From the NCBI RefSeq assembly GCF_001592085.1, contig NZ_BCWD01000011.1, positions 1 to 64,000 on the forward strand: a DNA stretch of 64,000 nt. Direction: 5' to 3'. The first letter of the stretch is position 1. Each line of letters starts with the position of its first letter. Position numbers and translations under genes: made by a program. Below, piece by piece: positions 55,898 through 64,000 of this stretch. The notes below the pieces were generated by a model that had not been told where the DNA came from, made no database searches, and saw only the letters and a program-made list of their open reading frames with translations. This stretch comes from Levilactobacillus senmaizukei DSM 21775 = NBRC 103853. GTDB taxonomy: Bacteria; Bacillota; Bacilli; Lactobacillales; Lactobacillaceae.

Positions 55898-56201
55898 TTA
55901 ATCCGAAGCCAATTTCGCAGACAATACCGCGTTCCAATAACCCCCATGGGTATCCGGAATCTGTTCACGCAATCGACCTTCCACCTGAAAGTGCCAGCGC
56001 TTTGCCACCCTTTGACTAGGGAAGTTAGCGCTGGCCGCTAGTCAGAAGCGTTTACTTTGTTCCATGTGGCGTTGGCAAATGCGAAGAAAAGCGGCCTCAT
56101 CCGCCACGGTTTTAGTGTCATCGGTCCAGGGCAACCACTGGCGTAACGTCGGGCGTGAGAGACCTGAAAACAATCGTTTCAGAAACCTGATACTCCGTCA
56201 T
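55898..56201 (-). pseudogene. Decayed GNAT acetyltransferase (RimJ/RimL-like)
   Basis: The - strand from ATG 56201 (GAAGTGAG upstream) reads MTEYQVSETIVFRSLTPD, then a shifted frame gives TLRQWLPWTDDTKTVADEAA, a hallmark of RimL-type acetyltransferases. A TGA (56044-56042) follows KRF where TGG is expected, and the sequence then jumps to NFPSQRVAKRWHFQVEGRLRE, the acetyl-CoA-binding end, finishing at 55898. About 90 central residues are missing. So there is at least one frameshifting deletion, one nonsense codon and one large deletion; the gene is dead. A - strand terminator remains at 55842. Confidence 0.75.
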
Positions 56202-61195: not shown

Positions 61196-62599
61196 ATGAA
61201 AGTCATCATTGTTGGTAGTACACACGCTGGCACAAATGCCGCACTTCAAATCTTGCGTGATCACCCAGACACAGATGTTACTATTTATGAACGTCATACG
61301 AACGTCTCATTTCTTTCTTGTGGAATCTCTTTGTTCTTAGATGGACAAGTTAAACATCTAGAAGATATGTTCTATTCTTCCCCTAAGCAGCTGGAAGAAG
61401 CTGGCGCCAAGGTTAAGACTCGACGGAATGTCATTAAGATTGACTCCGAAGCCAAAACCGTCGACGTTGTGGACATGGACTCTGGTGACTTAACGACGGA
61501 TAGTTATGATAAATTAATTATGGCTACCGGATCGACGGTGACTGTCCCACCAATCTTTGGAATTGATGAAGATAAGGTCATGTTGTGTAAGAATTACGAA
61601 CAAGCAGTGGCAATTGATGCTGCCGCTAAGGGTAACAAGCGGATTGCCATCATTGGTGCTGGTTATATCGGGACTGAATTGGCCGAAAGCTACGCTCGGA
61701 CTGGCCACGAAGTTCAGTTGTTCCAATCACGTGATATTATCCTGAATCATTATGTGGACAAGGGATTGTCCGACCATATCGTTGGCCTGCTAGAAGACAA
61801 GGGCGTTGCCGTTAACCTTAATCGGCGGGTGACGGCCTTCACCGGTAACGACAATGGGGAATTGGTCATTGAAACGACGAATGGTGAGTTCACGGCTGAC
61901 CTAGCTGTGGTCTGCACCGGCTTCGTGCCCAACACCGAATTACTTCGGGGGCAAGTTGAAATGGACCGGCATGGGGCCATTATCATCAATGACTATGTGC
62001 AAACGTCCAACCCGGACATCTTCGCCTGTGGCGATGCCAGCGTGGTTAACTTTAACCCAACCGGCAAGCCAGCCTACACACCATTGGCGACCAACGCCGT
62101 GCGGCAAGGGATGTTAGCTGGGATTAACGTCTTTGGCAACATTCAACAATACATGGGAACCCAAGCAACGTCGGCCATGAAGATTTTTGGTCACACGTTG
62201 GCTTCAACTGGATTAACCATTGATCACGCCCTGAGTGCAGGGATGGATGCTGATATGGTAACCTTTGAGGGCACATGGCGACCAAGTTACATGCCAACGA
62301 CGGATGATCTGACGATCAACTTGGTTTACAACCGGAAGAACCGCCGGATCTTAGGCGCCCAATTCTTCAGTAAACACGAAGTGGCCCAATCGGCTAACGC
62401 CATCTCCATTGCGATTCAAAACCGCAATACGATTGATGACCTGGCCTTTGTGGACATGTTGTTTAACCCGAACTTCGATGACCCATTCAACTACTTGAAC
62501 CTTGTGGCACAACAAGCCGTTGAAAAGGAAACGAAGCGGGGCAACAACCATCCACGGTTGACGGCGGGGGTTGACCCAGATCCAGAATTAGCGGATTAA
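61196..62599 (+). CDS. nox: FAD-dependent NADH oxidase / CoA-disulfide reductase family
   Basis: A 467-residue flavoenzyme with redox Cys42 in FLSCGI, the FAD motif VGSTHAGTNAA, the NAD motif IIGAGYIGTELAES and the flavin-loop FACGDAS. It lacks a C-terminal rhodanese domain, unlike CoA-persulfide reductases. This pattern fits water-forming NADH oxidase (Nox2), which removes O2 and regenerates NAD+. ATG follows TAGGAGGG. The same fold occurs in CstR regulons as CoA-persulfide reductase; since thioredoxin-cstR lie directly downstream, that activity is a possible alternative. Confidence 0.88.
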   Translation: MKVIIVGSTHAGTNAALQILRDHPDTDVTIYERHTNVSFLSCGISLFLDGQVKHLEDMFYSSPKQLEEAGAKVKTRRNVIKIDSEAKTVDVVDMDSGDLTTDSYDKLIMATGSTVTVPPIFGIDEDKVMLCKNYEQAVAIDAAAKGNKRIAIIGAGYIGTELAESYARTGHEVQLFQSRDIILNHYVDKGLSDHIVGLLEDKGVAVNLNRRVTAFTGNDNGELVIETTNGEFTADLAVVCTGFVPNTELLRGQVEMDRHGAIIINDYVQTSNPDIFACGDASVVNFNPTGKPAYTPLATNAVRQGMLAGINVFGNIQQYMGTQATSAMKIFGHTLASTGLTIDHALSAGMDADMVTFEGTWRPSYMPTTDDLTINLVYNRKNRRILGAQFFSKHEVAQSANAISIAIQNRNTIDDLAFVDMLFNPNFDDPFNYLNLVAQQAVEKETKRGNNHPRLTAGVDPDPELAD

Positions 62600-62616: not shown

Positions 62617-62648
62617 AGGACATCGGGGTCAAGCCGATGTCCTTTTTT
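62617..62648 (+). terminator. Terminator of nox
   Basis: AGGACATCGG / CCGATGTCCT stem with TTTTTT. Confidence 0.9.
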
Positions 62649-62678
62649 GATCGGCTTAAGCTAAATACTAGCTAATTG

Positions 62679-62694
62679 ATACCCCTTGGGGTAT
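62679..62694. promoter_or_regulatory. CstR/CsoR-type palindromic operator upstream of trx-cstR
   Basis: ATACCCC-TT-GGGGTAT is a perfect palindrome with the C-tract/G-tract layout of CsoR-family operators. It lies 37 bp upstream of the thioredoxin start and overlaps a possible -10 (TATAGT, 62692-62697). Confidence 0.8.
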
Positions 62695-62730
62695 AGTTGG
62701 GAATATTAAATTAGAGAAAATGAGGTATTG

Positions 62731-63060
62731 ATGATGCAAGCAATTACGACAAAGGATTTCGAACACATTGGTGACGACACGGCCGTCACGGTCGTTGACT
62801 TCTGGGCAGATTGGTGTGGACCATGTAAGATGCAGACGCCGGTGCTAGAATCCCTGGATGAAGAATACGGGGACAAGGTCAAGTTTGCTTCACTCGACGT
62901 TGATAAGAATCAAGAGTTGGCGCAAAGTTTAGGCATCATGAGTATTCCTTCCATGGTGATCTTCAAGAATGGGATGCCAACGGAAAAGGTTGTGGGTTTT
63001 CATCCTAAGGCGGCGCTCAAGAAGTACCTGGATGGTAAGCTAACTGAAGTGGCCGGCTAA
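62731..63060 (+). CDS. trxA: Thioredoxin
   Basis: A 109-residue classical thioredoxin. The active site is WADWCGPCKM (Cys29, Cys32) and the cis-proline is in SIPSMVIF. It reduces disulfides and, in CstR-controlled systems, persulfides. ATG 62731 or 62734 can serve with the GAGG site. Its stop overlaps the cstR start by one base. The operator upstream indicates that this is a special, sulfur-stress-controlled thioredoxin rather than the housekeeping copy; the latter is expected elsewhere. Confidence 0.93.
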   Translation: MMQAITTKDFEHIGDDTAVTVVDFWADWCGPCKMQTPVLESLDEEYGDKVKFASLDVDKNQELAQSLGIMSIPSMVIFKNGMPTEKVVGFHPKAALKKYLDGKLTEVAG

Positions 63061-63323
63061 TGGTTCAAACCACGTCGGCTCAACTCAAAAATCGCCTTCG
63101 TCGGGCGGACGGTCAACTCCAAGGAATTTTGAAAATGGTCGAAGATGATCGCGACTGTCGTGATATCTTGACACAACTTGCCGCGGTTCGGTCTGGGGTT
63201 GAACGGATGATGGGGGTTGTTGTCGCTGAAAATGTCAGGCAGTGTGTTGCCGCAGGCCAGTTAACACCGGAGCAACAGACCGAGTTGCAGTCAGCCCTGG
63301 ACCTGGTGGTTAAGACTCACTAA
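63060..63323 (+). CDS. cstR: CsoR/FrmR family repressor, CstR-type persulfide sensor
   Basis: An 87-residue DUF156 repressor. The Cys pair is present (Cys33 in DRDCRDIL and Cys62 in VRQCVAA), but the Cu ligand His four residues before the second Cys is Asn58 (AENVRQC). This Cys/Asn/Cys pattern is that of CstR, which is released from DNA by per- and polysulfides, not by Cu(I). The arrangement SGVERMMGVVVAENV is very like S. aureus CstR (from memory). The start overlaps the trxA stop (TAATG), so it is co-translated and autoregulated through the operator at 62679. Confidence 0.87.
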   Translation: MVQTTSAQLKNRLRRADGQLQGILKMVEDDRDCRDILTQLAAVRSGVERMMGVVVAENVRQCVAAGQLTPEQQTELQSALDLVVKTH

Positions 63324-63332
63324 ATTTGATGA

Positions 63333-63358
63333 GAAGCCGCCGTTCTGGCGGCTTTTTT
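63333..63358 (+). terminator. Terminator of trxA-cstR
   Basis: AAGCCGCC / GGCGGC stem with TTTTTT. The -10 (TATAAT, 63361-63366) of crcB directly follows. Confidence 0.9.
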
Positions 63359-63395: not shown

Positions 63396-63788
63396 ATGGA
63401 AACCGTCTTTTCAATTGCCGGATGGGCGTTTGTTGGCGCCAGTTTACGTTATTGGCTGGGGCTTCAGTTACCGACGGGCCCCGACTTTCCCTGGGCCACG
63501 ATTATCGTCAATCTCTTGGGTAGTGGGCTGTTGGCCTGGTTGTCCCACGCTGACCGCCTAACGGCACGTTGGCCGAGTGCTCTGACGGTTGGGTTGGGAG
63601 TTGGCGGGGTCGGTGCGTTCACGACCTTTTCCACTTTTAGTGTTGCGACGCTTAAACTGCTGATGACCCAGCATTGGGGTACGGCTGCAATCTATATGGG
63701 GATGACTCTGGTAGGCGGTTTCATCATGAGCGTGCTGGGCGTTTGGATTGCGCGACACTGGTTTTCGTTTCCGGTGGCTGAACAGTGA
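63396..63788 (+). CDS. crcB: CrcB/Fluc fluoride channel subunit 1
   Basis: A 130-residue, four-span fluoride exporter subunit. GASLRYWL (first helix), the conserved N in INLLGS-like VNLLGSG, and GVGAFTTFSTFSVATLKLL (the TTFSTF phenylalanine-box signature) are intact. Active channels are dual-topology dimers; tandem genes encode opposite-oriented subunits. It overlaps the next crcB by one base (TGATG). ATG has TGGAGG. No fluoride riboswitch fits in the 72-bp upstream gap. Confidence 0.95.
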   Translation: METVFSIAGWAFVGASLRYWLGLQLPTGPDFPWATIIVNLLGSGLLAWLSHADRLTARWPSALTVGLGVGGVGAFTTFSTFSVATLKLLMTQHWGTAAIYMGMTLVGGFIMSVLGVWIARHWFSFPVAEQ

Positions 63789-64000
63789 TGGCGGTCGGGG
63801 TTGGCTTGGGAGCAGCCATTGGGGCCTTGGCCCGTTATGCGGTGACCCGGCTTCTACAGCCGTTGACCCAGAATCGGTGGCCGGTCGCCACGCTACTGAT
63901 CAACTGGTTGGGCAGCGGGCTATTAGGAGCGCTGACCGCCGCCAGTCTGAGTCATTGGCTGGTGGTCTGCTTAGGAACGGGTGTCTTAGGTGGCTTCACC
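63788..64000 (+). CDS. crcB: CrcB/Fluc fluoride channel subunit 2 (runs off the window)
   Basis: The N-terminal 71 residues of a second CrcB: MAVGVGLGAAIGALARYAVT, the conserved NWLGSG and the beginning of VLGGFT. It starts at ATG 63788, overlapping the first crcB stop, and is cut by the right edge. The pair would form a heterodimeric channel. Incomplete here only because of the window. Confidence 0.9.
   Translation, partial: MAVGVGLGAAIGALARYAVTRLLQPLTQNRWPVATLLINWLGSGLLGALTAASLSHWLVVCLGTGVLGGFT

Follow-up and report, generated by a model that had tools for sequence, protein, structure and literature searches.

The window, meaning the whole 64,000-nucleotide stretch analysed here, lies on contig C11 of a 2.2-Mb draft genome of Levilactobacillus senmaizukei assembled in 74 contigs. 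On its forward strand, a thioredoxin gene, trx (62734-63060), is followed by a repressor gene, cstR (63060-63323), and the stop codon of trx overlaps the start codon of cstR by one base (TAATG). The trx product is a thioredoxin of 108 residues with a WCGPC active site, which was recognised by PF00085 and by TIGR01068 (112.5 bits against a cut-off of 96.8); its start (MQAI...) was set to match relatives. The cstR product is a CsoR-family repressor of 87 residues (PF02583, 84 bits, cut-off 22.8) with Cys33, Asn58 and Cys62, and was placed by alignments, a tree and a fold search. Upstream of trx lies the operator ATACCCCTTGGGGTAT (62679-62694), a perfect 16-bp palindrome that was located by exact-copy and pattern searches and in the alignment of relatives. 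The first-pass annotation had described a thioredoxin joined to a CsoR-family gene under a perfect palindrome, and this arrangement is confirmed. A probable ribosome-binding site, GAGG (62722-62725, forward strand), was read from the sequence, and a terminator-like hairpin, a consensus match only, is located 3' of cstR (63339-63352, forward strand).

A putative -10 box, TATAGT (62692-62697, forward strand), the outer bases of which are kept in relatives, overlaps the operator. A putative -35 box, TAGCTA (62669-62674, forward strand), which is often TAGCCA in relatives, was read from the sequence 17 bases 5' of the -10 box. A sigma-70 consensus scan called no promoter at the trx-cstR operon. 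Across 28 aligned upstream regions from the genus, 12 of the 16 positions of the operator do not vary; as the search pattern itself fixes these letters, the independent evidence of conservation comes from the bases that complete the -10 box and from a G further upstream. The A and T that finish the -10 hexamer outside the search pattern were identical in all 28 aligned regions, as was the G of the putative -35 box, eight bases 5' of the operator. ATACCCCTTGGGGTAT is present as a single exact copy in the window, and the pattern ATACCCN{2,5}GGGTAT was found at one place in the whole 2.2-Mb draft genome, compared to none for the reversed-pattern control. The regulon search proposed in the first-pass annotation gave no second site of this pattern in the genome. 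An operator-like site near position 55938 of the window has three mismatches, which is within the expectation from the dinucleotide-shuffled window (mean of 0.64 matches at up to three mismatches), and was set aside.

The gene upstream of the operon (61196-62599, forward strand) encodes a flavoprotein whose nearest solved structures are NADH oxidases (5er0). It scored 404 bits against the NCBIfam profile for H2O-forming NADH oxidase, under the 600-bit cut-off of that profile, and 421 of 467 aligned residues are identical to a protein of L. brevis ATCC 14869. The adjoining gene had been annotated at first pass as an NADH oxidase next to the operon, and it is indeed a conserved, NADH oxidase-like neighbour, but it looks like a separate transcription unit and is probably outside the trx-cstR unit. 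We leave it out because a terminator-like hairpin (62617-62643, forward strand; a 10-pair stem followed by a T run, again a consensus match only) lies between it and the operon, and within the window none of the reported operator-like sites is close to it. On the other side, 3' of the operon at 63396-64000, are two CrcB/Fluc-like fluoride channel genes in tandem, the first identified by profile search and the second judged by eye.

Alignment of the repressor with members of the CsoR family placed Asn58 opposite the His of M. tuberculosis CsoR, Geobacillus CsoR and InrS. The same position is Asn in the S. pneumoniae protein of 7mq1 and Ala in 7mq3; the PDB titles name 7mq1-7mq3 as CstR and 7mq3 as N55A, which marks the position equivalent to Asn58. 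The Cys-Asn-Cys triad (Cys33, Asn58 and Cys62) was kept in 15 of 15 aligned Levilactobacillus proteins, and these alignments uphold the initial claim that the copper-ligand His is replaced by Asn, the CstR signature. Among 125 CsoR-family rows, a set that includes copies and two loci from outside Lactobacillaceae, the triad was present in 84, Asn occupied the Asn58 position in 119 and His occupied it in one. The closest named relatives of the repressor are Levilactobacillus proteins, the top one being from L. tangyuanensis (85% identity). Its predicted structure (pLDDT 84, pTM 0.66) was searched with Foldseek, and the six top matches were S. pneumoniae CstR chains (E 3.5e-4 to 9.8e-4), with CsoR and InrS next in order; the TM-scores overlap and do not separate CstR from CsoR or FrmR, so that it is the Foldseek order alone that separates them. 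In a 32-row tree, three Cu/Ni sensor references branched away from the rest (95/91). The window repressor fell into a group (85/94) that also includes two CstR references and further Lactobacillaceae proteins; this group has no settled inner order, and its reference branches are long (long-branch warnings). Local identity was 35/74 to S. pneumoniae CstR and 33/84 to S. aureus CstR, compared to 28/77 to InrS and 23/75 and 24/73 to two CsoRs. A CstR-type assignment is supported by the Cys-Asn-Cys triad, by CstR as the best match among solved folds and by an operator of the cst kind.

The operator was followed across the genus in 35 Levilactobacillus genomes using the pattern ATACCYN{2,3}GGGGTAT, with a site seen on both strands counted once. 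Matches were obtained in 32 of the 35 genomes, at 51 sites in total, compared to one match over all 35 for the reversed-pattern control. A thioredoxin or CoA-disulfide-reductase/rhodanese (CoAPR) gene is preceded by 49 of the 51 sites. Thirty are located 5' of the WCGPC thioredoxin of the trx-cstR operon (28 assigned by script, and G313 and G315 besides, with the pattern on the other strand), 16 are 5' of a WCPPC thioredoxin located elsewhere, and three, in G309, G310 and G317, are 5' of the 550-residue CoAPR. Five genomes are without an exact site at trx-cstR; four of them have a two-mismatch site there, and in the fifth, G306 (72% complete), a trx-cstR-type thioredoxin was not found. A cstR encoding the C-N-C triad follows the thioredoxin in all 34 loci, 30 with the exact site and four with the two-mismatch site. 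The two sites without an evident target, on G302:C6 and G308:C98 (L163 at 3060 and L168 at 3046), are seemingly in the same intergenic stretch in two species, flanked by genes that appear by eye to be acetyltransferase-like on one side and dehydrogenase-like on the other.

The cst locus of S. aureus on pRM27 has ATACCTATGAGGGTAT and ATACCTATAGGGGTAT 5' of its divergent genes. The form ATACCTATGGGGGTAT, which is present at 11 of the 51 Levilactobacillus sites, is one base from ATACCTATGAGGGTAT and one base from ATACCTATAGGGGTAT, and on this frequent form we class the operator as cst-type. The window's own ATACCCCTTGGGGTAT is four and three bases away, respectively, and this distance was counted against reading the repressor as a persulfide-sensing CstR.

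WCPPC-type thioredoxins (at least 70% identity to the query) were found at 17 places in 16 of the 35 Levilactobacillus genomes, and 16 of these places have the exact operator. The 17th, 54 bases 3' of a TACCAATGGGGGTA site, has its own cstR and is part of a G318 contig that also bears a transposase. The transposase-bearing locus L243 (G318:C32) has a WCPPC trx-cstR pair together with a CoAPR-type gene and then a second CsoR-family gene. A flavoprotein frame with the motif GTCPNYGC is located 3' of the WCPPC thioredoxin in seven of the 16 loci read, the frame of L201 containing stops as read, and the top profile for the L162 copy was glutathione reductase, under the cut-off. CoAPR was detected at 63% identity or above in 21 of the 35 genomes, and forms of 38-46% identity in nine more. 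Twelve CoAPR loci were inspected: six have an operator-like site (up to two mismatches) 16-28 bases 5' of the start, and the other six have no operator-like site, which weighs against a persulfide sensor. CoAPR is an apparent target in some Levilactobacillus species only. The recurrence of the operator at thiol-reducing enzymes suggests a simple sulfur-stress circuit.

The genome of the window has four thioredoxin-family matches (the WCGPC protein of the operon, another WCGPC protein, a WCPDC protein and one more divergent), a thioredoxin reductase gene and a single CsoR-family gene. It has one rhodanese, which lies away from the operon and has no operator match, and this too was counted against persulfide sensing, as was the lack of any TusA or CoAPR match. 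With the draft assembly as its limit, the term minimal two-gene unit appears apt for this species, since one operator was found and a WCPPC thioredoxin, a CoAPR of more than 30% identity and TusA were not found in the draft genome. Thioredoxin as the sole effector, as the first-pass annotation had it, fits this species but not many of its relatives, where operators also precede a second thioredoxin and, in some, CoAPR.

A survey of 301 Lactobacillaceae genomes returned a CsoR-family match in 95, of which 94 were placed and one, G259, under the cut-off, was left out. A thioredoxin gene is directly upstream of the repressor gene on the same strand in 41 of the placed genomes, divergent in 14 and within 2 kb upstream in seven, making 62 of 94 thioredoxin-linked. 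No thioredoxin was seen near the repressor in the other 32, and some may have been missed at 29 loci (L028-L056) that covered at most 1.5 kb per side. In Levilactobacillus, the thioredoxin was directly upstream in 15 of the 15 genomes in this survey. With linkage this common in Lactobacillaceae, it is, judged by gene order, a lineage trait, and the idea that the two genes are an isolated case of a reduced CstR system does not stand. In a 93-row tree, a 54-row group (94/75) united Levilactobacillus with the other main thioredoxin-linked rows, a join that carried a long-branch warning; the thioredoxin-linked C-N-K proteins of genus g20 fell outside this group. A single origin of the linkage was not supported, as the label needs several changes on this tree and the join is a meeting of long branches.

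The thioredoxin-linked repressors of genus g4 and others are without Cys at the Cys62 position, a further point counted against the persulfide reading. At the genus g4 loci (L103, L106, L107, L109-L113, L116, L118, L119, L121 and L124), the thioredoxin gene is divergent from the repressor gene, operator-like sites lie between the two, and a Cys is found three residues beyond the usual place of the second Cys. In genus g33, the CsoR-family proteins of L108, L115, L117, L122 and L123 have no cysteine at all, and some are encoded near an NADH-oxidase-like flavoprotein; going by their residues, neither CstR nor CsoR, as usually understood, can apply to them.

Building on the observed anatomy and its conservation, on the family placement and on the finding that relatives repeatedly have the operator in front of thiol-reducing genes, we propose that trx-cstR is probably an autoregulated thiol-repair operon in which a CstR-type persulfide sensor drives thiol reduction. 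Reduced CstR tetramers would sit on the palindrome, cover the -10 box and keep the operon from being transcribed, as the overlap of operator and -10 box suggests. When per- or polysulfides rise, Cys33 would attack them and become bridged to Cys62 of the neighbouring subunit, and the bridged CstR would leave the DNA, allowing thioredoxin and CstR to be made. Thioredoxin, recharged by thioredoxin reductase, would strip proteins of their sulfane sulfur and disulfides and, by reducing CstR too, may close the loop. We infer that CstR binds the DNA, that sulfur is the signal, that the two Cys become bridged and that thioredoxin resets CstR, and base the persulfide sensing on the residues, the fold, the form of the operator and CoAPR as a shared target. 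The available text of PMC9774590 describes how the two Cys of S. aureus CstR become linked by di- to tetrasulfide bridges, and that of PMC6196236 describes the reduction of persulfides by S. aureus thioredoxin-like proteins.

The operon shares features with several known systems. The S. aureus cst locus (pRM27 copy) has a Cys-Asn-Cys repressor, with the 33/84 identity noted above, and operators of the same form, but its linked gene encodes a DsrE-type sulfurtransferase on the divergent strand rather than a thioredoxin. In the cst-like operon of Enterococcus faecalis (RhdA, RhdB and CoAPR), which also has a CstR-type repressor, CoAPR is a CstR target according to the available text of PMC9405070, matching its apparent role in some Levilactobacillus. 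Rhodanese/CoAPR-linked repressor operons occur in other Lactobacillaceae as well, for example the rhodanese/FAD-oxidoreductase/cstR operon with a CstR-type repressor on a Secundilactobacillus malefermentans plasmid. In operons of the E. faecalis and S. malefermentans type, rhodaneses and CoAPR are in an operon with cstR, whereas the Levilactobacillus partner is a thioredoxin. The Bacillus licheniformis YrkD cluster combines a CstR homologue with a hypothetical thioredoxin, YdfQ, but there the thioredoxin gene belongs to an 11-gene cluster with sqr and pdo among its members (PMC9918477, available text). In Thermus thermophilus, the CsoR-family repressor TTHA1953 represses a thioredoxin, SoxW, but its operator is TACNNTACNNNNGTANNGTA and its Sox pathway targets are distant from the repressor gene (PMC10318464, available text). 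Thioredoxin genes within larger regulons of the CsoR/CstR family are thus already published, as these texts on YdfQ and SoxW describe. None of the literature matches listed, as titles and abstract openings, described lactobacilli with an operon of thioredoxin and CstR; these matches did not extend to the main paper on persulfide sensors of the CsoR family (Nucleic Acids Research, 2021).

The repressor could instead sense thiol stress more broadly, with electrophiles, oxidants, organic disulfides or sulfur compounds from plants as signals, and trx-cstR would then be a thioredoxin operon for disulfide stress. We consider this unlikely: thioredoxin fits disulfide stress as well as it fits persulfides, and the glutathione-reductase-like flavoprotein at seven of 16 WCPPC loci is in keeping with it, but some species appear to have a persulfide enzyme, CoAPR, among the targets, and the operator is of the cst kind.

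Far less probable is a copper CsoR whose thioredoxin shields thiols under copper stress, since Asn58 stands in the place of the copper-ligand His and leaves no Cys-His-Cys site, and the three Cu/Ni sensors fall outside the tree group of the repressor. The genome already has CopY, and the open frame after it looks, by eye, like a copper P-type ATPase; no copper export or chaperone gene was seen beside the unit, where the neighbours read were NADH oxidase and CrcB. What speaks for copper is membership of the CsoR family (PF02583) and the company of some related pairs. One L. brevis plasmid carries thioredoxin, repressor, Dps, a CopZ-like protein and Crp-type regulators together, and at loci of genus g38 (L072:5349-7259 and others) what looks by eye like a P-type ATPase carrying a CPG motif is encoded upstream of trx-cstR; these neighbours hint at metal in those branches. 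A formaldehyde sensor like FrmR is barely conceivable, as the weak match to the FrmR profile (40.5 bits) is far under the 133-bit cut-off and the protein begins with MVQ, without the N-terminal Pro that FrmR carries.

Taking trx-cstR as a persulfide-sensing thiol-repair operon, we tentatively extend the reading to the family, as a possibility somewhat short of even. Lactobacillaceae may have a CstR branch with thioredoxin as its core target, rather than sulfur-transfer or sulfide-oxidising enzymes, forming a sensor-and-eraser pair in which thioredoxin would repair persulfidated proteins and reset the repressor. In some species this pair would have gained further targets, namely CoAPR, a second thioredoxin and a glutathione-reductase-like flavoprotein, and in small genomes like that of the window it would have been cut back to one operator. 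The published persulfide-sensor regulons of S. aureus, E. faecalis, B. licheniformis and T. thermophilus centre, as far as their available texts describe them, on sulfur-transfer, CoAPR or sulfide-oxidising enzymes; if the proposal is true, a thioredoxin-centred lactobacillar regulon would be another route for handling reactive sulfur. The conserved operator and named targets make it testable in easily handled laboratory species, as a circuit of two genes whose enzyme may also reset the sensor controlling it.

Relatives of the repressor are present on 444 plasmid records. Some hosts of related pairs came from sauerkraut and kimchi, foods in which plant sulfur compounds are a plausible signal.
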